A stretch of DNA of 64,000 nucleotides, taken from contig NZ_AUIS01000005.1 in assembly GCF_000423825.1 (NCBI RefSeq), positions 62,001 to 126,000 of the forward strand. The letters are read 5' to 3'. The notes beneath the pieces are model-generated. The model saw only the letters and a program-made list of their open reading frames with translations, was not told the origin of the DNA and ran no database searches. The position numbers were made by a program, and so were the translations under genes. Position 1 is the stretch's first letter, and each line of letters begins with the position of its first letter. The DNA comes from Thermithiobacillus tepidarius DSM 3134 (GTDB lineage: Bacteria > Pseudomonadota > Gammaproteobacteria > Acidithiobacillales > Thermithiobacillaceae). Below are positions 55,458-64,000 of this stretch, piece after piece.

Positions 55458-56321
55458 ATGGCAGAGCAGCAGCATCCGGTGGGCCAGCCCCCGCAGCAGC
55501 AGGAGCCGCCTGGCCGGGAATCCGACATGACGCCACGGCCCCGTGCTGACGACAGCCGGTATCGGGGCAGCGGCAAGCTGGCGAACAAGGCGGCGCTGAT
55601 CACCGGCGGCGACAGCGGGATCGGGCGGGCGGTGGCGATCGCTTTTGCCAAGGAAGGGGCCGACGTGGCCATCGTCTATCTCAGCGAACATGGCGATGCC
55701 GAGGAAAGCAAGCGCCTGGTCGAGCAGCAGGGCCGGCGCTGCATCACCATCGCCGGCGATGCCGGGGACGAGGGCTTCTGCCGGCAGGCGGTGCAGCAGA
55801 CCCTGGACGCCTTCGGCCGCCTGGACGTGCTGGTCAACAACGCCGCCGAGCAGCATCCGCAAAAGCGCCTCGAGGACATCAGCGCCGAGCAGCTGGAAAA
55901 GACCTTCCGCACCAACATCTTTTCCTACTTCTTCATGACCAAGGCGGCGCTGCCGCACCTGAAGGCGGGCGCGGCCATCGTCAACACCACTTCGGTGACC
56001 GCCTACAAGGGCAGCCCGGAGCTGCTGGATTACTCGTCCACCAAGGGGGCCATCGTCGCCTTCACCCGCTCCCTGTCCCAGTCCCTGGCGGAACAGGGCA
56101 TCCGCGTCAACGCGGTGGCGCCGGGTCCCATCTGGACGCCGCTGATTCCCTCAACTTTTCCGCCCGAGAAGGTGGAGAGCTTCGGCAAGAACGTGCCCCT
56201 CGGGCGCGCCGGGCAGCCGGAGGAGATCGCCCCCAGCTACGTATTCCTGGCTTCGGACGATGCTTCCTACATGACCGGCCAGGTGCTGCATCCCAACGGC
56301 GGCACGGTGGTCAACGGCTGA
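55458..56321 (+). CDS. SDR-family oxidoreductase (YghA-like)
   Basis: 287 residues; start at 55458 with AAAGGAGGCC upstream. N-terminal extension about 1-38 (PQQQEPPGRESDMTPRPR), then a Rossmann domain: AALITGGDSGIGRAVAIAFAKEGADVAIVYL (TGxxxGIG), NNAAEQHPQ, active site with Ser in NTTSVTAYKG and YSSTKGAIVAF (YxxxK), RVNAVAPGPIWTPLIP. NADP-dependent alcohol or aldehyde reductase of the type seen beside stress genes (YghA, general stress protein 39). Substrate unknown. Confidence 0.9.
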   Translation: MAEQQHPVGQPPQQQEPPGRESDMTPRPRADDSRYRGSGKLANKAALITGGDSGIGRAVAIAFAKEGADVAIVYLSEHGDAEESKRLVEQQGRRCITIAGDAGDEGFCRQAVQQTLDAFGRLDVLVNNAAEQHPQKRLEDISAEQLEKTFRTNIFSYFFMTKAALPHLKAGAAIVNTTSVTAYKGSPELLDYSSTKGAIVAFTRSLSQSLAEQGIRVNAVAPGPIWTPLIPSTFPPEKVESFGKNVPLGRAGQPEEIAPSYVFLASDDASYMTGQVLHPNGGTVVNG

Positions 56322-56356
56322 GCGTGAATCACTCCCTCGATGACAGGAGACACATG

Positions 56357-56890
56357 ATGAATACACGCACGATATTGGGCAACAGCCTCATGGCCGGCAT
56401 GGCTGCCGCCCTGCTGTTCTTTTCACCGGCCAGTCATGCCCAGGCCCAGGCCGACCGGGCCTTCATGGAAATGGCTGCCCAAGGCGGCATGGCGGAGGTG
56501 CAGATGGGACAGATGGCCACCAGGCAGGCCGCCGACCCGGATGTGAAGCAGTTCGGCCAGCGTATGGTGGATGACCACGGCAAGGCCAACGCGGAGCTGA
56601 AGCAGTTGGCTCAGAAAAAGGGCGTGACCCTGCCCGATGACACGGACAAGAAGCACAAGGACATCGCCGCCCGCTTGGCCAAGCTCAAGGGTGCCGAGTT
56701 CGACCGGGCCTACATGGCGGCCATGGTGAAGGATCACCAGGAGGACGTGACCCACTTCGAGAACAAGGCCAAGAACGCCAAGGACGCCGACGTCAAGGCG
56801 TGGGCCGGCAAGACCCTGCCGGTGCTGAAGGAGCACCTGCAGATGGCCGAAAGCCTGCATGCCCGTCTGGCCAAGTCGGGGTCCAAGTGA
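56357..56890 (+). CDS. Exported DUF4142 protein
   Basis: 177 residues from ATG 56357 (ATG 56354 alternative), with AGGAG at 56345. Signal peptide to about AQA (30), then the DUF4142 four-helix, ferritin-like fold: DRAFMEMAAQGGMAEVQMGQMATRQAADPDVKQFGQRMVDDHGKANAELKQLAQKKGVTLPDDTDKKHKDI, AYMAAMVKDHQEDVTHFENKAKNAKDADVKAWAGKTLPVLKEHLQMA. The His/Glu/Asp pattern suggests a metal or stress-binding protein in the periplasm; often near stress regulators. Confidence 0.9.
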   Translation: MNTRTILGNSLMAGMAAALLFFSPASHAQAQADRAFMEMAAQGGMAEVQMGQMATRQAADPDVKQFGQRMVDDHGKANAELKQLAQKKGVTLPDDTDKKHKDIAARLAKLKGAEFDRAYMAAMVKDHQEDVTHFENKAKNAKDADVKAWAGKTLPVLKEHLQMAESLHARLAKSGSK

Positions 56891-56963
56891 GTTCGGGCCG
56901 CAGCCGATGATTGCATGCCGCTCCGGGCCCCGGTCCGGGGCGGCGATCAAGCGGAGGTGCAAC

Positions 56964-57257
56964 ATGGCAAGCGAAAGCAAGATCACGACCAATCACGATG
57001 AGATCCGTCGCTGGGTGGAGCAGCGCGGCGGGCACCCGGCGCGGGTCAAGGGCACCGGCAAGGGAAGCGACGAAGGGCTCCTGCGCATCGACTTTCCCGG
57101 CTACAGCGGAGGCGATTCGCTGGAGGAGATCTCCTGGGAGGACTTCTTCGACAAGTTCGAGGAAAAGGAGCTCGCCTTTCTCTACCAGGACAAGACCGCT
57201 GGCGGCGAGGAAAGCCGCTTTTCCAAGCTGGTGAGCCGCAAGGAGCACAAGCACTGA
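56964..57257 (+). CDS. Small soluble stress-cluster protein (97 aa)
   Basis: 97 residues from ATG 56964, with GCGGAGG upstream. Contains EIRRWVEQRGGHPARVKGTGKGSDEGLLRIDFPGYSGGDSLEEISWEDFFDKFEEKELAFLYQDKTAGGE, a family that is frequent in stress clusters and is often mislabelled in databases as a glucan branching enzyme; no enzyme motif is seen here. Acidic middle, basic ends. Function unknown. Confidence 0.82.
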   Translation: MASESKITTNHDEIRRWVEQRGGHPARVKGTGKGSDEGLLRIDFPGYSGGDSLEEISWEDFFDKFEEKELAFLYQDKTAGGEESRFSKLVSRKEHKH

Positions 57258-57285
57258 GGGCCGGAGTGGCCGGCCAGCGAGGTAA

Positions 57286-58887
57286 ATGATGAACAAGCAG
57301 GCAGCGTGGGCGGGTCTCTTTCTGATCTTGGCCGCTTTTGCCTGGATGGGCAGCGCGGCCGCCGCCGATGGGGCGCGCTCCGGCACCCTGACCATCCTGC
57401 ACACCAACGACTTCCATGGGCGCTACATGCCCTTTGCCGTGGCCCCCGGCAACGCCACCGCCCAGACCGGTGATCCGGGCCGGGCGCCGCAGAGCTTCGC
57501 GCGGACGGGCAAGGTCAACGGATTCGCGCGCCTGGCCACCGCCATCGCGCAGATCCGCCGCGAGCGCGGTCCGACCAACGTGCTGCTCCTGCATGGCGGC
57601 GACACCTTCAGCGACGATCTCCTGGGCAACCTGACCCGGGGCGAGGCGATCATTCGCCTGATGAACGCGGTGGGTTATCAGTTCATGGCCCTGGGCAACC
57701 ATGATTTCGACTACGGCGTCGAGCGCACCCGCGAGCTGCAGCGGCTCGCCCGCTTTCCCATGCGCGGCGCCAACGTCATCGACCAGGCCAGCGGCCGGCC
57801 CTTCCTGGGCAACCCGGCCGTGATCCTGACGGCGGGCGGGCTGCGCGTGGGCATCCTGGCGCTGGGCTACCACAACACCGACCAGACCGGCAGTCCGGAC
57901 AACACCAAGGGGCTGCGCTTCACCAGCGGCATCGAGGCGGCCAAGCGCTACGTGCCCATGCTGCGGCGCCAGGCCGACATGGTGGTGGTCCTGTCCCATC
58001 AGGGCAGCAAGGTGGACCGCATCCTGGCCCGCGAGGTGCCGGACATCGATCTCATCGTCGGCGCCCATTCCCACGACGAGATCGCGCCGCCGGAACGCAT
58101 CGGCAAGGTGCGCCTGGTGCAGGCCCTGTCCGACGCGGCGGTGCTCGGCGAGGTGACGATCCGGGTGGCCGACGGCCAGATCGCCGAGGTGCGCGGCGTG
58201 GCCCACACCCTGTGGGACGACCGGTATCCGGCCGACCCTGGGGTCAGCCGCCTGATCGAGCGCCTGCGCGCGCCCCATCGCGCCCAGCTGGAGGCGGTGA
58301 TCGCCACCGCCGCCGAGCGCATCGGCCGGCGCTACAAATCGGAGAGCCCCTTCGACACCCTGGCCGGCGAGATCCTGCGCCGCCATGCCAAGGCCGAGGT
58401 GGCCTTCCTGCCGGGCGTGGGCTACGGCGTGTCCCTGTCGCCGGGCCCCATCCGGCGCGAGGACCTCTACACCCTGCTGCCGCATCCGTCCAAGGTGGTC
58501 AGCATGCGGCTCACCGGGGCGCAGATCCTGGCGATCCTGGAGCAGAGCGCGACCAACCAGAAGCCGGAGAATCCCCTCGACGCGGTCGGCGGCCTGGTGC
58601 AGACGGCCGGCCTGCGCTGGACCGTTGACCTGACCCGGCCTATCGGCCAGCGCATCCGCGACGTGGCCGTGGGCGACGCGCCCCTCGACCCCGACCGCAG
58701 CTACCGGGTGGTGACCCACAGCGGCATGCTGCAGGGCATCCACCGCTACGGCACCTTTGCCGAGGGCCGCGACATCGAGCGGACAGAGGACAAGGTGACG
58801 GACGTGGTGGAGGCGGGGCTGCGAGCCATGGGGACCGTGCGTGCTCCGGCTTTGGGCGCGGTCACCCTGATCAAAGACGAAACTTGA
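57286..58887 (+). CDS. Exported 5'-nucleotidase/metallophosphatase
   Basis: 533 residues, signal peptide to about AAA (26), metallophosphatase domain (about 32-260): LTILHTNDFHGR, LLLHGGDTFSDDLLG, FMALGNHDFDYG, VVVLSHQGSKVD and VGAHSHDE give the dinuclear metal site; the C-terminal 5_nucleotid_C domain (about 340-500) binds the substrate (GQ...FLPGVGYGVSL, LPHPSKVVSMRLTG, VTHSGMLQGIH). It hydrolyses nucleotides or cyclic nucleotide monophosphates in the periplasm. Its place in a stress island is unusual but common in related genomes. Confidence 0.92.
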   Translation: MMNKQAAWAGLFLILAAFAWMGSAAAADGARSGTLTILHTNDFHGRYMPFAVAPGNATAQTGDPGRAPQSFARTGKVNGFARLATAIAQIRRERGPTNVLLLHGGDTFSDDLLGNLTRGEAIIRLMNAVGYQFMALGNHDFDYGVERTRELQRLARFPMRGANVIDQASGRPFLGNPAVILTAGGLRVGILALGYHNTDQTGSPDNTKGLRFTSGIEAAKRYVPMLRRQADMVVVLSHQGSKVDRILAREVPDIDLIVGAHSHDEIAPPERIGKVRLVQALSDAAVLGEVTIRVADGQIAEVRGVAHTLWDDRYPADPGVSRLIERLRAPHRAQLEAVIATAAERIGRRYKSESPFDTLAGEILRRHAKAEVAFLPGVGYGVSLSPGPIRREDLYTLLPHPSKVVSMRLTGAQILAILEQSATNQKPENPLDAVGGLVQTAGLRWTVDLTRPIGQRIRDVAVGDAPLDPDRSYRVVTHSGMLQGIHRYGTFAEGRDIERTEDKVTDVVEAGLRAMGTVRAPALGAVTLIKDET

Positions 58888-58939
58888 CGGTCCAAAAGAT
58901 TGTGAACAGTCAAAGACCGGAACCTTGAGGAGGTTTGCC

Positions 58940-59590
58940 ATGGAACGCAATCGATTCGGCAAGCATGACATGCGGCGCCGGCACCCGCTGGACGGCCAGA
59001 ATCAGGTGGATCACTCGCCGGAAGGCGTGTCCGGCCGCGACGCCGGGCCGGGCCGCCATCGCCATCACGCGGAACGCTCGGCGCGGCCTTGGGCCGATGC
59101 CGAAGAAGGACAGAGCCATGCGCGCGGCGGCCGCGAGGTGTTCCACCCGGAAGCGGATTACGACGAGGACAACCTGGCCTTCATCCCCAATTCCTACGGC
59201 GGGCGCTACGAGCGCCGCGACATGATGCAGCACCGCATGGATGCCCAGAGCGGCGACTATGGCAGCCACCGTTCCTGGCACGCTTGGGAACGCAATCCGT
59301 CGGGCATCGCGGAGCGGCAGGATGAGCGTCCGCGCGGCGGGCAGCGGGGCAAGGGGCCCAAGGGTTATCAACCCTCCGACGAACGCCTGAAGGAGCGGTT
59401 GCAAGAAGCGTTCTATGATGATGATGAACTGGATGCCAGCGAAATCGAGATCCTGGTCCAGGGCGGCGAGGTGACGCTGCAGGGCGCGGTGGCCGAGCGG
59501 GAGGACCGTCAGCGGGCGGAGTGGCTGGTCGAGCGCGTGGCGGGCCACCGGGTGCACGTCAACAACAATCTCCGTGTCCAGGGCCACTAG
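58940..59590 (+). CDS. BON-domain protein
   Basis: 216 residues from ATG 58940 with a GAGGAGG ribosome site. The first 140 residues are polar and Arg/His/Glu-rich, without signal peptide (LDGQNQVDHSPEGVSGRD, NSYGGRYERRDMMQHRMDAQSGDYG). The C-terminal BON domain (about 148-212): SDERLKERLQEAFYDDDELDASEIEILVQGGEVTLQGAVAEREDRQRAEWLVERVAGHRVHVNNNLRVQ. BON domains bind lipids or the envelope. Stress-associated; the N-terminal part resembles the RcsB-like or SWFGD-type proteins seen in similar islands. Confidence 0.85.
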   Translation: MERNRFGKHDMRRRHPLDGQNQVDHSPEGVSGRDAGPGRHRHHAERSARPWADAEEGQSHARGGREVFHPEADYDEDNLAFIPNSYGGRYERRDMMQHRMDAQSGDYGSHRSWHAWERNPSGIAERQDERPRGGQRGKGPKGYQPSDERLKERLQEAFYDDDELDASEIEILVQGGEVTLQGAVAEREDRQRAEWLVERVAGHRVHVNNNLRVQGH

Positions 59591-59685
59591 AAGTGCGCCG
59601 TGGTCCACGGCAGTCGGCAGGACCTTGGGGTGGGAACGTGGGAGCATCGCGTTGTAATCGGGAATCTGCAAGTGTGGAGGTTGAG

Positions 59686-59916
59686 ATGGCTTCCAGAAAG
59701 ATGTCCGAGCCGCCGGACCCCAAGGGCAGCCTGCCCAGGCATGTACTGGAGATCTACCTGGCGGCGTTCAACCGCGCCTGGAATGCGTGCGCCGGCGATG
59801 ATGACCGCAGAGGGCATCTCTCGCGCGCGGAAATCGCCCATAAAGCGGCTTGGATGGCGGTCAGGCAGCAGTATGAGCAGCCGGGCGGGAACGCCCGCAG
59901 CGGCGCGGAGGACTGA
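59686..59916 (+). CDS. chaB: ChaB-like protein
   Basis: 76 residues from ATG 59686 (GTGGAGG upstream). PRHVLEIYLAAFNRAWNACAGDDDRRGHLSRAEIAHKAAWMAVRQQYEQP is the ChaB core (LP..AQEIYLAAFNNAW...EE.AHRVAWAAVK). ChaB is a putative regulator of the cation antiporter ChaA in E. coli; no chaA is adjacent here, although a K+/H+-type antiporter lies at 45189. Last gene of the stress island. Confidence 0.88.
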   Translation: MASRKMSEPPDPKGSLPRHVLEIYLAAFNRAWNACAGDDDRRGHLSRAEIAHKAAWMAVRQQYEQPGGNARSGAED

Positions 59917-60192
59917 TCCAGCCGTCCTGCGCCGCGCCGGCCGGGCGGCCAAGCGATGATCGCCGGCCGACAGTCCGCGGTTATTCTGCAATGCTGGAAT
60001 CACTCGTCCGGCGTGCCGCCAGGCACGCGCGGACTCCATGAGCCTGGAGCCAGGCGGGTCACTCCGAGCAGGGAGGATCAAACACACCGGTAACGCAAGT
60101 CGAGCAGGCCTTACCCAACTCTTAATAAATCTGAAACGCACCCGCACGCGTTGCGCGCGTTGCCGGTACGGCGAAATAAGATGGAGGAGGCT
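59917..60192. other. 276-bp intergenic region before the sugar-nucleotide genes
   Basis: A 12-bp bulged hairpin GTCCGGCGTGCC...GGCACGCGCGGAC (60006-60034) is likely the end signal of the ChaB unit. An AT-rich stretch around 60121-60135 (CTTAATAAATC) may hold the promoter of the 60193 gene. No further gene is visible. Confidence 0.45.
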
Positions 60193-61221
60193 ATGAAGAA
60201 CTTACAAAGAAAGCGCATTCTGGTCACCGGTGGCGCGGGTTTCCTGGGCTCTCACCTATGCGAGCGGCTGCTGAACGAAGGCCACGATGTCCTGTGCGTG
60301 GATAATTTCTTCACCGGCGCCAAGGAAAACATCATCCCGCTGCTGGACAACCCGCACTTCGAGGTGCTCCGCCACGACGTGACCTTCCCCCTCTACGTGG
60401 AGGTGGACGAGATCTACAACCTGGCCTGCCCGGCCTCGCCGGTCCACTATCAGTTCGATCCGGTGCAGACCACCAAGACCAGCGTGCTCGGGGCCATCAA
60501 CATGCTGGGCCTGGCCAAGCGCACCAGGGCCAAGATCTTCCAGGCCTCCACCAGCGAGGTCTACGGCGACCCGCAGGTGCACCCGCAGCCGGAGGAGTAC
60601 CGCGGTCACGTCAATCCCAACGGCCTGCGCGCCTGCTACGACGAGGGCAAGCGCTGCGCCGAGACCCTCTTTTTCGATTACCGCCGCCAGCATGGCCTGC
60701 GCATCAAGGTGGCGCGCATCTTCAACACCTACGGCCCGAAGATGCTGCCCAACGACGGGCGGGTGATCTCCAACTTCATTGTCCAGGCCCTCCGGGGCGA
60801 GCCCATCACCGTCTACGGCGACGGCCTGCAGACGCGCTCCTTCTGCTACGTGGACGATCTGATCGAGGGCTTTCTCCGCTTGATGAACAGCCCCGACGAT
60901 CTGCCCGGGCCGATCAATCTGGGCAATCCCGGCGAGTTCACCATCCTGGAGCTGGCCCAGAAGGTGCTGTCCATGACCGGCTCTAAATCCAAGATCGTGT
61001 TCAAGCCGCTGCCCAAGGATGATCCCCTGCAGCGGCGCCCGGACATCTCCCTGGCCCGGGAGCAGTTGCGCTGGGAGCCCAAGATCAAGCTGGAAGAGGG
61101 GCTGATCAAGACCATCGCTTATTTCGACAAGCTGCTCAAGGCGGGCAGAACCGCCAAGTCTTTTGCCAAGCCAGTGATCCATCCCGCCGCCGAGGCGCAG
61201 TCGCTGCGCCTGAATTTTTGA
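60193..61221 (+). CDS. uxs: UDP-glucuronate decarboxylase (UDP-xylose synthase)-like SDR
   Basis: 342 residues from ATG 60193, with GGAGGAGG just upstream (earlier in-frame ATGs are unsupported). [22 protein letters not shown] (NAD site), [63 protein letters not shown] with YxxxK as YDEGK (characteristic for UXS), [42 protein letters not shown]. It decarboxylates UDP-glucuronate to UDP-xylose, a donor for polysaccharides. First gene of a nucleotide-sugar cluster; the next gene follows by 71 bp. Confidence 0.92.
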
Positions 61222-61292
61222 AGCGCCGGCCGCCTGCTGAGCCGGCATTGGAGATGCGTGGAGCAACGTGAACAGACTTCCGGAGAATGGGC

Positions 61293-62411
61293 ATGAGTAA
61301 ACTTGTGTTGATTACGGGCGGGGCGGGCTTCATCGGCTCCCATCTCGCAGACGAACTGCTGGCCCACGGCTACCGGGTGCGCGCCCTGGACAACCTGGCG
61401 CCGCAGGTGCACGGGCCCGACGCCAAGCGGCCCGATTACCTGCATCCCGACGTGGAGCTGATGGTCGGCGACGTGCGCGACCCGGCCGCGGTGCGGCGCG
61501 CCCTGCTGGGCGTCGACGCGGTCTACCACTTCGCGGCGGTGGTCGGCGTGGGGCAGAGCATGTACGAGATCGCCCGCTACACCGACGTGAACAACATGGG
61601 CACGGCGGTGCTCCTGGAAACCCTGATCCAGCAGCCGGTGGAGCGCCTGATCGTGGCCTCCAGCATGAGCATTTACGGCGAGGGGCTCTATCGCGGGCCG
61701 GACGGCAGCATCTCCGCCGGCGTCGAACGCAGCCTGGCGCAGCTGAAGGCCGGCGACTGGGAGGTGCGCAACGCCGACGGCGAGGTCCTGAGGCCGGTGC
61801 CCACGCCGGAGGACAAGGCCCCGGCGCTGCCTTCCGTCTATGCCCTGTCCAAGTACGACCAGGAGCGCATGTGCCTGATGATCGGCCGCGCCTACGGCAT
61901 CTCCAGCGTGGCGCTGCGTTTCTTCAACATCTTCGGCACGCGCCAGGCCCTGTCGAATCCCTACACCGGCGTGCTGGCCATCTTCGCCTCGCGCTTCCTG
62001 AACGGCAATCCGCCCCTGATCAACGAGGACGGCTACCAGCAGCGCGATTTCGTCAGCGTCTACGACGTGGCCCGCGCCTGCCGCCTGGCCCTGGAGGTGC
62101 CGGAGGCGGCGGACCAGGTCTTCAACATCGCCAGCGGCAACCAGTACACCATCCGCGAGGTGGCCGAGCGCATGGCCGTGGCCCTGGGCAAGCCGCAGAT
62201 CCGGCCGGAGATCACCGGCAAGTACCGGGTCGGCGACATCCGCCACTGCGTGGCCGACATCGGCCATGCCCGCCGGGTGCTCGGCTACGAGCCGCGGGTG
62301 AGCCTGGAGGAGGGGCTGGTCGAGCTGGCCGAGTGGCTGGAAGGCCAGAGCGCCGTGGACCGCGTGGCCGAGGCGCGCGCCGAACTGGCCATGCGGGGAC
62401 TGGCCCTATGA
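61293..62411 (+). CDS. NAD-dependent nucleotide-sugar epimerase/dehydratase (SDR)
   Basis: 372 residues from ATG 61293 with GGAG 7 bp upstream (ATG 61287 overlaps the site). SDR fold: VLITGGAGFIGSHLADELL, HFAAVVGVGQSMYEI, VASSMSIYGEGLY, SVYALSKYDQERMCLMIG (YxxxK active site), RFFNIFGTRQALSNPYTGVLAIF, RDFVSVYDVARACRLAL. Most like dTDP-L-rhamnose 4-epimerase or related sugar epimerases. The stop overlaps the next gene (ATGA). The precise substrate needs biochemical data. Confidence 0.88.
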   Translation: MSKLVLITGGAGFIGSHLADELLAHGYRVRALDNLAPQVHGPDAKRPDYLHPDVELMVGDVRDPAAVRRALLGVDAVYHFAAVVGVGQSMYEIARYTDVNNMGTAVLLETLIQQPVERLIVASSMSIYGEGLYRGPDGSISAGVERSLAQLKAGDWEVRNADGEVLRPVPTPEDKAPALPSVYALSKYDQERMCLMIGRAYGISSVALRFFNIFGTRQALSNPYTGVLAIFASRFLNGNPPLINEDGYQQRDFVSVYDVARACRLALEVPEAADQVFNIASGNQYTIREVAERMAVALGKPQIRPEITGKYRVGDIRHCVADIGHARRVLGYEPRVSLEEGLVELAEWLEGQSAVDRVAEARAELAMRGLAL

Positions 62412-64000
62412 CACAGCCGATCGTAGGCCTGGTGGAGTGGTTCCGGCCCGGCGAGCATGAGCGCGTGGAGCGCGTGCTCGCCGACTTGCGCAGCCTGGGC
62501 GTGAAGGATCTGCGCGTCGGCGTGTCCTGGGCGGACTGGTTCTCGGCGGACGGCGAGGCCTGGTACCGCTGGCTGTTGCCGCGCTTGGCGCAGGAGGTGA
62601 GGATCCTGCCCTGCTTTCTCGACGCCCTGCCTTTCCTGAACGCGGTCACCCGCCTGACGCGCCCGCCCCACGAGCCCGAGGCCTATGCCGACTGGATCGA
62701 GCTCTTCATCGCCCGCCACGGCCAGACCTTCGAGTGGCTGGAGCTGTGGATCGATCCCTTCCTGCGGCAGCCGGACGCGGCGCTGGATGCCGGCGAGCAG
62801 GTGTGCTTCAGCGAGATGCTGAGCGACGCCGCCCGCCGGGCCCGCAAGCAGGGCAAGAAGATCGTCCTGGGCGGCCTCAGCCCGCGCTACCCCAAGTGGC
62901 TGCAGGTGCTGGCCGGCCATGGCCTGCTGGCGCACGTGGATGCGCTGGGCCTGCACGCCTTTCCGGGCACCTACGATTTCCAGTGGGAGGGCTGGCCCGA
63001 TGCCGTCGACCGGCTGCGCGGCATGCTGGCCGGGCCGGGCGCGCAGCCGGAGATCTGGATCAGCGAAACGGGCTACGCCACCGTGCGCCATGACGAGCGC
63101 CAGCAGCTGCGCGAATTCCTTGCCGCCCTGGACGCCCCGGTGACGCGGGTCTACTGGTACGGCCTGGAGGACCGGCCCGTGCCGGCCGAGGCGGGCGATT
63201 ATCAGGACGAGCGCGCGGCCCATTTCGGCCTGCGCCAGGCCGACGGCGCCCCCAAGCTGCTGTTCCGCCTGTGGGCGACGGGCGGCCTGGACGGCGTGCG
63301 CGAGGCGGCCTGGATGACCCGGCAGTGGCGGGCGAGCCGCGAGCGCGTGGCGCTCATCACCGGCGGCGCCGGCTTCATCGGCACCAATCTGGCCCATCGG
63401 CTGCTCGGCATGGGGCGGCCGGTGCTGATCCTGGACAACCTGGCCCGCCCCGGCGTGGAGCGCAACCTGCAGTGGCTGCGCGACACCCACGGCGAGCGTG
63501 CCCGCTTCCAACTGGCCGACATGCGCGATGCCGGCGCCGTGCGCGAGGCGGTGGCGCGGGCGGAGCAGGTCTACCACCTGGCGGCGCAGGTCGCCGTCAC
63601 CACCAGCCTGGTCAACCCCCTGCACGATTTCCAGGTCAACGCCCTGGGCACCATCAATCTGCTGGAGGCGGTGCGCGCCCAGGACGCGCCGCCGCCGGTG
63701 CTCATCACGTCCACCAACAAGGTCTACGGCGCCCTGGAGCAGGTGGGCCTGCGCCTGCACGGCAAGCGCTACGAGCCCGAGCAGGACCTGCTGCGCGGCC
63801 GCGGCATCGGCGAGGAGGCGCCGCTGGACTTCCACAGCCCCTACGGCTGCTCCAAGGGCGCGGCGGACCAGTACGTGCTCGACTACGCCCGTTCCTTCGG
63901 GCTGGCCACCGCCGTGTTCCGCATGAGCTGCATCTACGGCCCGCACCAGTTCGGCACCGAGGACCAGGGCTGGGTGGCCCACTTCCTGATCCGCGCCATC
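62408..64000 (+). CDS. Fusion: TIM-barrel glycosidase-like domain + SDR epimerase domain (3' incomplete)
   Basis: 531 residues in the window, still open at 64000. N-terminal about 1-300: a clan GH-A barrel (VGLVEWFRPGEHERVERVLADLRSLGVKDLRVGVSWADWF, YRWLLPRLAQEVRILPCFLDALPFLN, WLELWIDPFLRQ, EIWISETGYAT near strand 7). From about 312: SDR epimerase (ALITGGAGFIGTNLAHRLLGMGRP, HLAAQVAVTTSLVNPLHDF, TSTNKVYGAL, SPYGCSKGAADQYVLDYARSFG with YxxxK, RMSCIYGPHQFGTEDQGW). The strand-4 acid/base motif is IDP rather than NEP, while the nucleophile region ISETG is kept. This suggests a sugar-binding rather than a fully active glycosidase, joined to an epimerase. No published example known to me. Confidence 0.85.
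   Translation, partial: MTQPIVGLVEWFRPGEHERVERVLADLRSLGVKDLRVGVSWADWFSADGEAWYRWLLPRLAQEVRILPCFLDALPFLNAVTRLTRPPHEPEAYADWIELFIARHGQTFEWLELWIDPFLRQPDAALDAGEQVCFSEMLSDAARRARKQGKKIVLGGLSPRYPKWLQVLAGHGLLAHVDALGLHAFPGTYDFQWEGWPDAVDRLRGMLAGPGAQPEIWISETGYATVRHDERQQLREFLAALDAPVTRVYWYGLEDRPVPAEAGDYQDERAAHFGLRQADGAPKLLFRLWATGGLDGVREAAWMTRQWRASRERVALITGGAGFIGTNLAHRLLGMGRPVLILDNLARPGVERNLQWLRDTHGERARFQLADMRDAGAVREAVARAEQVYHLAAQVAVTTSLVNPLHDFQVNALGTINLLEAVRAQDAPPPVLITSTNKVYGALEQVGLRLHGKRYEPEQDLLRGRGIGEEAPLDFHSPYGCSKGAADQYVLDYARSFGLATAVFRMSCIYGPHQFGTEDQGWVAHFLIRAI

Follow-up and report, generated by a model that had tools for sequence, protein, structure and literature searches.

The fusion gene at the 3′ end of the window (the whole stretch analysed here, 64,000 nucleotides at positions 62001–126000 of contig NZ_AUIS01000005.1, contig 3 in the 2.96 Mb genome of Thermithiobacillus tepidarius DSM 3134) encodes a GH-A-like barrel joined to a predicted NDP-sugar epimerase. 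The reading that we favour, with a probability of about 0.68, is that the barrel has been degraded to a structural or sugar-binding pseudoglycosidase, while a circularly permuted paralogue in the same genome has assumed its catalysis in trans. This reading draws on the conservation of the fusion across phyla, the loss of active-site residues in the fused barrel, and the co-occurrence of such loss with the permuted gene.

The Fusion Gene and Its Operon

The complete gene encodes 663 residues, with the barrel occupying residues 1–294 and an SDR domain residues 313–648. Its single open frame runs from the ATG at 62408 past the window end at 64000 for a further 399 bp, to a stop at window-equivalent position 64399. 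The original prediction of a barrel and an epimerase in one frame therefore held when the gene was read to its end without interruption, as did that of an ATGA coupling to another epimerase gene, the overlap lying at 62408–62411. A frameshift or assembly join merging two normal genes, the artefact considered in that prediction, has a negligible probability and is ruled out because the same junction recurs in about 11 phyla. The frame is unbroken inside a 203 kb contig, and the identical barrel–SDR junction is present in 80 further loci (conserved in 80/80) and in other genomes.

Because no signal peptide is apparent in the fusion protein, it is predicted to be cytoplasmic. The first gene of the operon (UXS, Table 1) has counterparts annotated as UDP-glucuronic acid decarboxylase in homologous clusters of Xanthomonas, Rhizobium, and Paracoccus. 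The gene 3′ of the fusion encodes a TIGR04295 B12-binding radical SAM protein (723 bits against a cut-off of 400), which likewise begins by an ATGA overlap with the fusion gene and is followed by three glycosyltransferase genes.

Table 1. Positions of the fusion gene parts, neighbouring genes, and permuted barrel genes (window positions unless a locus is given).
Feature	Position	Strand	Basis or remark
SDR oxidoreductase, DUF4142, 5′-nucleotidase, BON domain, and ChaB genes, 5′ of operon	55458..59916	+	Pfam matches
UDP-glucuronate decarboxylase-like SDR (UXS), first gene of operon	60151..61221	+	PF01370, 2.8e-49
Extended-SDR epimerase (SDR2), 5′ of fusion	61287..62411	+	PF01370, 2.1e-49
N-terminal GH-A-like (β/α)8 barrel, residues 1–294, degenerate at active site	62408..63289	+	AlphaFold, fold matches, homology to 87 aligned fused barrels
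Strand-4 Ile115-Asp116-Pro117 replacing Asn-Glu-Pro	62750..62758	+	Alignment of 87 fused barrels
Glu220, strand-7 nucleophile position, kept	63065..63067	+	IWISETG; Glu in 80/87 fused barrels
C-terminal SDR (NDP-sugar 2-epimerase-like), from residue 313	63344..64000, plus 399 bp to stop codon	+	phmmer, PF01370, motifs
Permuted GH-A-like barrel	L008:10521-11438; G000:C3:147521-148438 (this genome)	- (L008)	Annotated "beta-xylosidase" in some public records
Permuted-barrel module: histidine phosphatase, TIGR04290 methyltransferase, nucleotidyltransferase, glycosyltransferase, inositol-3-phosphate synthase	L008:9905-18994 and L108-L122		

The SDR half matched CDP-tyvelose 2-epimerases end to end in phmmer searches (9rl0, 1.6e-88; 1orr, 4.6e-84, covering residues 4–333 of 351), with UDP-glucose 4-epimerase as the next-best family (8e-40), and it matched PF01370 at 2.4e-49. 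It has in common with 1orr and 9rl0 the Rossmann glycine motif, STNK, YxxxK, and the YGxxQFxTxDQGW region of CDP-tyvelose (CDP-paratose) 2-epimerases, and its NAD-binding GGAGFIG motif and catalytic S435/T436, Y479xxxK483, and STNK are intact and conserved in the alignment. These features predict that the SDR half is active and epimerizes an NDP-sugar in the manner of CDP-tyvelose 2-epimerases. Unlike 1orr and 9rl0, which are stand-alone proteins, the SDR here bears an N-terminal barrel and is encoded beside glycosyltransferases and a radical SAM protein.

An AlphaFold model of the barrel built from 61 sequences bears out the proposed clan GH-A fold, a (β/α)8 barrel (pLDDT 87.5, pTM 0.88) of low confidence mainly at residues 74–84 and in the loop after β4, which places residues 115–117 at the end of β4 and Glu220 at the end of β7. 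GH-A structures dominate the PDB fold-match lists, with PslG at the top and GH1 enzymes and Klotho tied. No Pfam family was assigned to the window barrel alone, PF11790 being found in 5 of the 61 members, and sequence searches of the PDB with a single sequence or a profile gave no convincing homologue of solved structure (nothing below E 0.002; GH39 xylosidases matched the profile weakly at E 0.017). PslG of Pseudomonas aeruginosa, the Psl glycosidase (PDB 9g17, 5bx9, 4zn2; Z 23.7, Foldseek E 2.8e-13), belongs like the barrel to a polysaccharide biosynthesis locus; it is 16–18% identical to the window barrel, which differs in lacking the acid/base and in being fused to an SDR. The Klotho proteins are GH1-like pseudoglycosidases of similar fold (PDB 5wi9, 5van; Z 23.2–23.3) and a precedent for a GH-A barrel turned into a binding domain after losing a catalytic Glu, but they are animal receptors without an SDR fusion, and their likeness to the window barrel is in type of function only.

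Distribution of the Fusion

Among 84,980 species genomes scanned, 222 loci carry the barrel, and the best 80 of these were examined. The barrel is joined to an SDR in all of these 80, and the SDR half belongs to the same family at an identity of at least 51% in 79 of them (the exception, L094, at 29%). The fusion was found in about 11 phyla, its loci falling, by record title, in Armatimonadota, Cyanobacteriota, Bacteroidota, Acidobacteriota, Verrucomicrobiota, Planctomycetota, Gemmatimonadota, Chloroflexota, Nitrospirota, Actinomycetota, Thermodesulfobacteriota, and Pseudomonadota; contrary to the earlier claim of novelty, it is neither rare nor confined to this genome. The same fusion is present in annotated plasmid records of Rhizobium, Paracoccus, Tistrella, and others, where it is labelled merely "NAD-dependent epimerase" or "SDR family."

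The conserved operon around the fusion comprises SDR2, the fusion, glycosyltransferases, and the TIGR04290 methyltransferase. Within 10 kb of the fusion, an SDR2 homologue occurs in 75 of the 80 loci (upstream of it in the loci displayed), glycosyltransferases in 69–74, and the methyltransferase in 50. The fusion recurs in about 11 phyla with largely the same neighbours and is therefore an old component of a conserved pathway. It marks a glycan pathway for which no product or biochemistry was found in the literature; publications on TIGR04295/TIGR04290, a tyvelose-epimerase fusion, RpoE2/S. meliloti, and Anabaena desiccation genes yielded nothing on the fusion protein. No phage or viral relatives were found in IMG/VR, and a wider Acidobacteriota sample gave no further barrel genomes.

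In a tree of the SDR, this genome's fusion clusters with those of Acidobacteriota, Verrucomicrobiota, Cyanobacteriota, Nitrospira, and Planctomycetota and not with other Pseudomonadota, which suggests horizontal transfer. In the record of Xanthomonas sacchari R1 (L017:15001-15393), a frameshift within the fused barrel causes the annotated gene to begin late.

Active-Site Loss in the Fused Barrel

Strand 4 of the window barrel reads LELW-Ile115-Asp116-Pro117 and strand 7 IWIS-Glu220-TG, in agreement with the original reading that Ile-Asp-Pro replaces Asn-Glu-Pro and that the Glu of ISETG remains. The loss of the acid/base deduced from it is real; as a description it was incomplete, further active-site positions being gone as well, and it is specific to certain lineages. 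Both catalytic Glu residues are kept in 73 of 87 aligned fused barrels and altered in 14, and the strand-4 position is Glu in 74 and Asp in just two, the window genome and G001 of the same family. The altered pairs (acid-base/nucleophile) are D/E in these two genomes, K/E in five Chthoniobacterales-type genomes, H/Q, R/Q, and Q/Q in four Acidobacteriota, G/A in Rufibacter hautae, Q/gap in a Hymenobacter, and E/G in a Nitrospira.

The extent of the loss was measured at 64 near-invariant columns, defined as those at least 95% conserved among intact barrels, with intact barrels scored leave-one-out. The window barrel deviates at 12 and that of G001 at 17 of these, whereas intact barrels deviate at 1.1 on average and at 6 at most. 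Most changes in the window barrel fall in the motifs of strands 3, 4, 5, 7, and 8 and include the loss of Asn115, the subsequent Asn-Asn, Tyr72-Thr73-Pro74, Trp226, and others; G001 has additionally lost His183. Since the window SDR deviates at 0 of 94 near-invariant columns, decay is confined to the barrel half of the fusion.

A Circularly Permuted Paralogue

The same genome contains a second barrel gene about 21 kb downstream, directly after the gene for a TIGR04290 methyltransferase (369 against a cut-off of 300) in the permuted-barrel cluster (Table 1). In its product, strand 4 (WNEPNN) comes first and helix 3 last, the order being β4–β8 followed by β1–β3. The HMM of the fused barrel matches it in swapped pieces (approximately 105–290 first, then 2–103), with E values on permuted copies of 1e-34 to 1e-44 for the first piece and 1e-17 to 1e-25 for the second. 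This order was also found in 18 copies from other genomes, including G001, Sinorhizobium meliloti, and Azospirillum, and WNEPNN and (T/S)E(V/A)G are kept in every permuted copy read, across several phyla. Judged by the order of its sequence segments, the paralogue is circularly permuted; the permuted copy folded from a two-row alignment reached a pLDDT of 50.

The "beta-xylosidase" (a name from annotation alone) of Azospirillum, Roseomonas, and Sinorhizobium is this permuted paralogue, 60–70% identical to that of the present genome, and its genes adjoin those of TIGR04290 methyltransferase or inositol-phosphate synthase. Unlike the fused barrel of the window, these copies are stand-alone and permuted and have intact catalytic residues. 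Circular permutation of a glycosidase barrel likewise occurs in GH70 glucansucrases, which are permuted relatives of GH13 (PMC4919382); these belong to a different clan and are secreted, whereas the paralogue here is GH-A-like with the break before β4. The literature on circularly permuted glycosidases concerns mainly GH70, and no GH-A case was found there; the paralogue would represent a naturally occurring circular permutation within clan GH-A. A Phycisphaerales genome encodes a stand-alone barrel of native order (L032:18890-19987, + strand), which is 41–48% identical to the permuted family and may represent an intermediate stage preceding permutation.

A module of further genes accompanies the permuted gene. 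Among 19 permuted loci, histidine phosphatase occurs in 17, the methyltransferase in 16, a sugar nucleotidyltransferase in 12, and inositol-3-phosphate synthase in 7; around the 80 fused genes, the phosphatase occurs in 2, the methyltransferase in 52, the nucleotidyltransferase in 4, and the synthase in 3. The sole inositol-3-phosphate synthase gene found in this genome sits in the permuted-barrel cluster. On this basis, our guess is that the pathway product is inositol-linked.

Barrel Decay and the Permuted Copy

In a first sample, made up of the genomes behind the loci, a permuted copy was present in 14 of 14 genomes with a decayed fused barrel (the window genome and G001 included) and in 3 of 68 with an intact one. 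A second sample added 27 Hymenobacteraceae genomes and counted genomes with usable fused sequence; the fused barrel is decayed in 19 of 33 genomes with a permuted copy and in 0 of 75 without (Fisher 1.2e-12, relatedness ignored). Fourteen genomes hold a permuted copy together with an intact fused barrel. Decay and the permuted copy at first seemed to correspond one to one, an idea dropped after the Hymenobacteraceae were added; the association holds in one direction only. Some genomes are incomplete MAGs in which a permuted copy could be missed, but such copies would add only to the class of intact barrels with a permuted copy, because every decayed case already has one. On the SDR tree, the decayed state needs about 9 changes, and well-supported branches provide about 5 independent pairs, of which about 4.3 run in the predicted direction and none against it (p 0.06–0.25).

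At equal SDR identity, decayed barrels are less similar to intact ones, reflecting faster divergence. Rufibacter hautae (decayed) and R. sediminis (intact, permuted copy present) are 96.8% identical in the SDR and 74.3% in the barrel, whereas the two identities are 96.0 and 96.0% for two Rufibacter without a permuted copy. Since decay has occurred repeatedly, pseudoenzyme formation could be tested in close pairs such as these first two species. In one of the Hymenobacteraceae genomes with a permuted copy (L155), the fused gene is split across two frames at the SDR start, which may reflect either a sequencing error or true decay.

An even sample of 299 Pseudomonadota genomes contained the barrel in 12, of which nine have the permuted form only, two the fused form only (intact), and the window genome both. 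Each of the nine permuted-only genomes has a single copy of the SDR, as a stand-alone protein with no barrel remnant, an arrangement also found on pSymB of S. meliloti. With a stand-alone SDR accompanying a permuted barrel, the two therefore share one pathway without having to be one protein; together, the fused and stand-alone forms place a barrel glycosidase and a 2-epimerase in one pathway.

Proposed Function and Alternative Explanations

We propose that the fusion protein works in the cytoplasm as a two-domain enzyme, encoded in a conserved operon for glycan or glycoside biosynthesis, and that its SDR most likely epimerizes an NDP-sugar at C2. The N-terminal half would descend from a retaining GH-A glycosidase or transglycosidase, intact and fused to the epimerase in most bacteria, that to judge from its family most likely cleaves or transfers the glycoside built by the glycosyltransferases of the operon. 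In this genome, the permuted paralogue would perform the barrel's step, with the fused barrel staying on as a structural or sugar-binding part. Some observations weigh against such a takeover: Asp116 might still serve as a weak acid/base with Glu220 kept, the 14 genomes with both genes intact imply that takeover is not obligatory or that substrates differ, the roughly 5 independent pairs, none of them contradicting, do not reach p 0.05, and the model of the permuted copy is of low confidence. It nevertheless seems fairly probable that two GH-A topologies serve one pathway and that acquisition of the permuted form repeatedly (about 9 changes) freed the fused form to decay or be deleted, in which case the window would show this replacement at a late stage.

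A working glycosidase with altered catalysis, using Asp116 or another residue as acid/base and Glu220 as nucleophile, would explain why Glu220 is kept and why Asp116 is shared with G001, the sole family relative, despite barrels only 60.5% identical. We consider this improbable given that Asn115, the Asn-Asn, Tyr72-Thr73-Pro74, Trp226, and others have gone too, that His183 is gone in G001 and the nucleophile in several other decayed lineages, and that decay tracks the permuted copy. The scaffold proposed originally, in which the barrel would hold a glycan or nucleotide sugar and pass it on to the epimerase, is likewise doubtful. The decayed barrel has been kept with good fold confidence and the barrel is fused in every locus examined (the best 80 of 222), but channelling cannot be a requirement, since S. 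meliloti and nine further genomes have the same SDR without the barrel. What stands of that proposal is a possible present role of the barrel in an uncharted sugar pathway, as a scaffold or sugar-binding domain without catalysis; this is not its general function, because most fused homologues keep both catalytic Glu residues, and it would be limited at most to lineages with a permuted stand-alone paralogue.

The decayed barrel might also be an evolutionary residue en route to deletion, tolerated as a folding partner of the SDR or simply awaiting removal. Many Pseudomonadota do pair a permuted barrel with a stand-alone SDR and no remnant, and the faster divergence of decayed barrels fits this account. 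Decayed barrels, however, have kept their full length and reading frame in groups of Acidobacteriota and Verrucomicrobiota, and closely related decayed fusions show barrel conservation on a par with that of the SDR (e.g., 89.7 vs 88.2%), which suggests continued selection and leaves mere residue a rather unlikely explanation next to a retained pseudoglycosidase.

Stress-Type Neighbours

The stress-type genes upstream of UXS (Table 1) are probably outside the operon. As neighbours (DUF4142, BON, ChaB, SDR), they weakly suggest that the product is a protective glycoside. Rhizobium sp. NXC14 (L018) likewise has DUF4142 and SDR genes close to its homologous operon.
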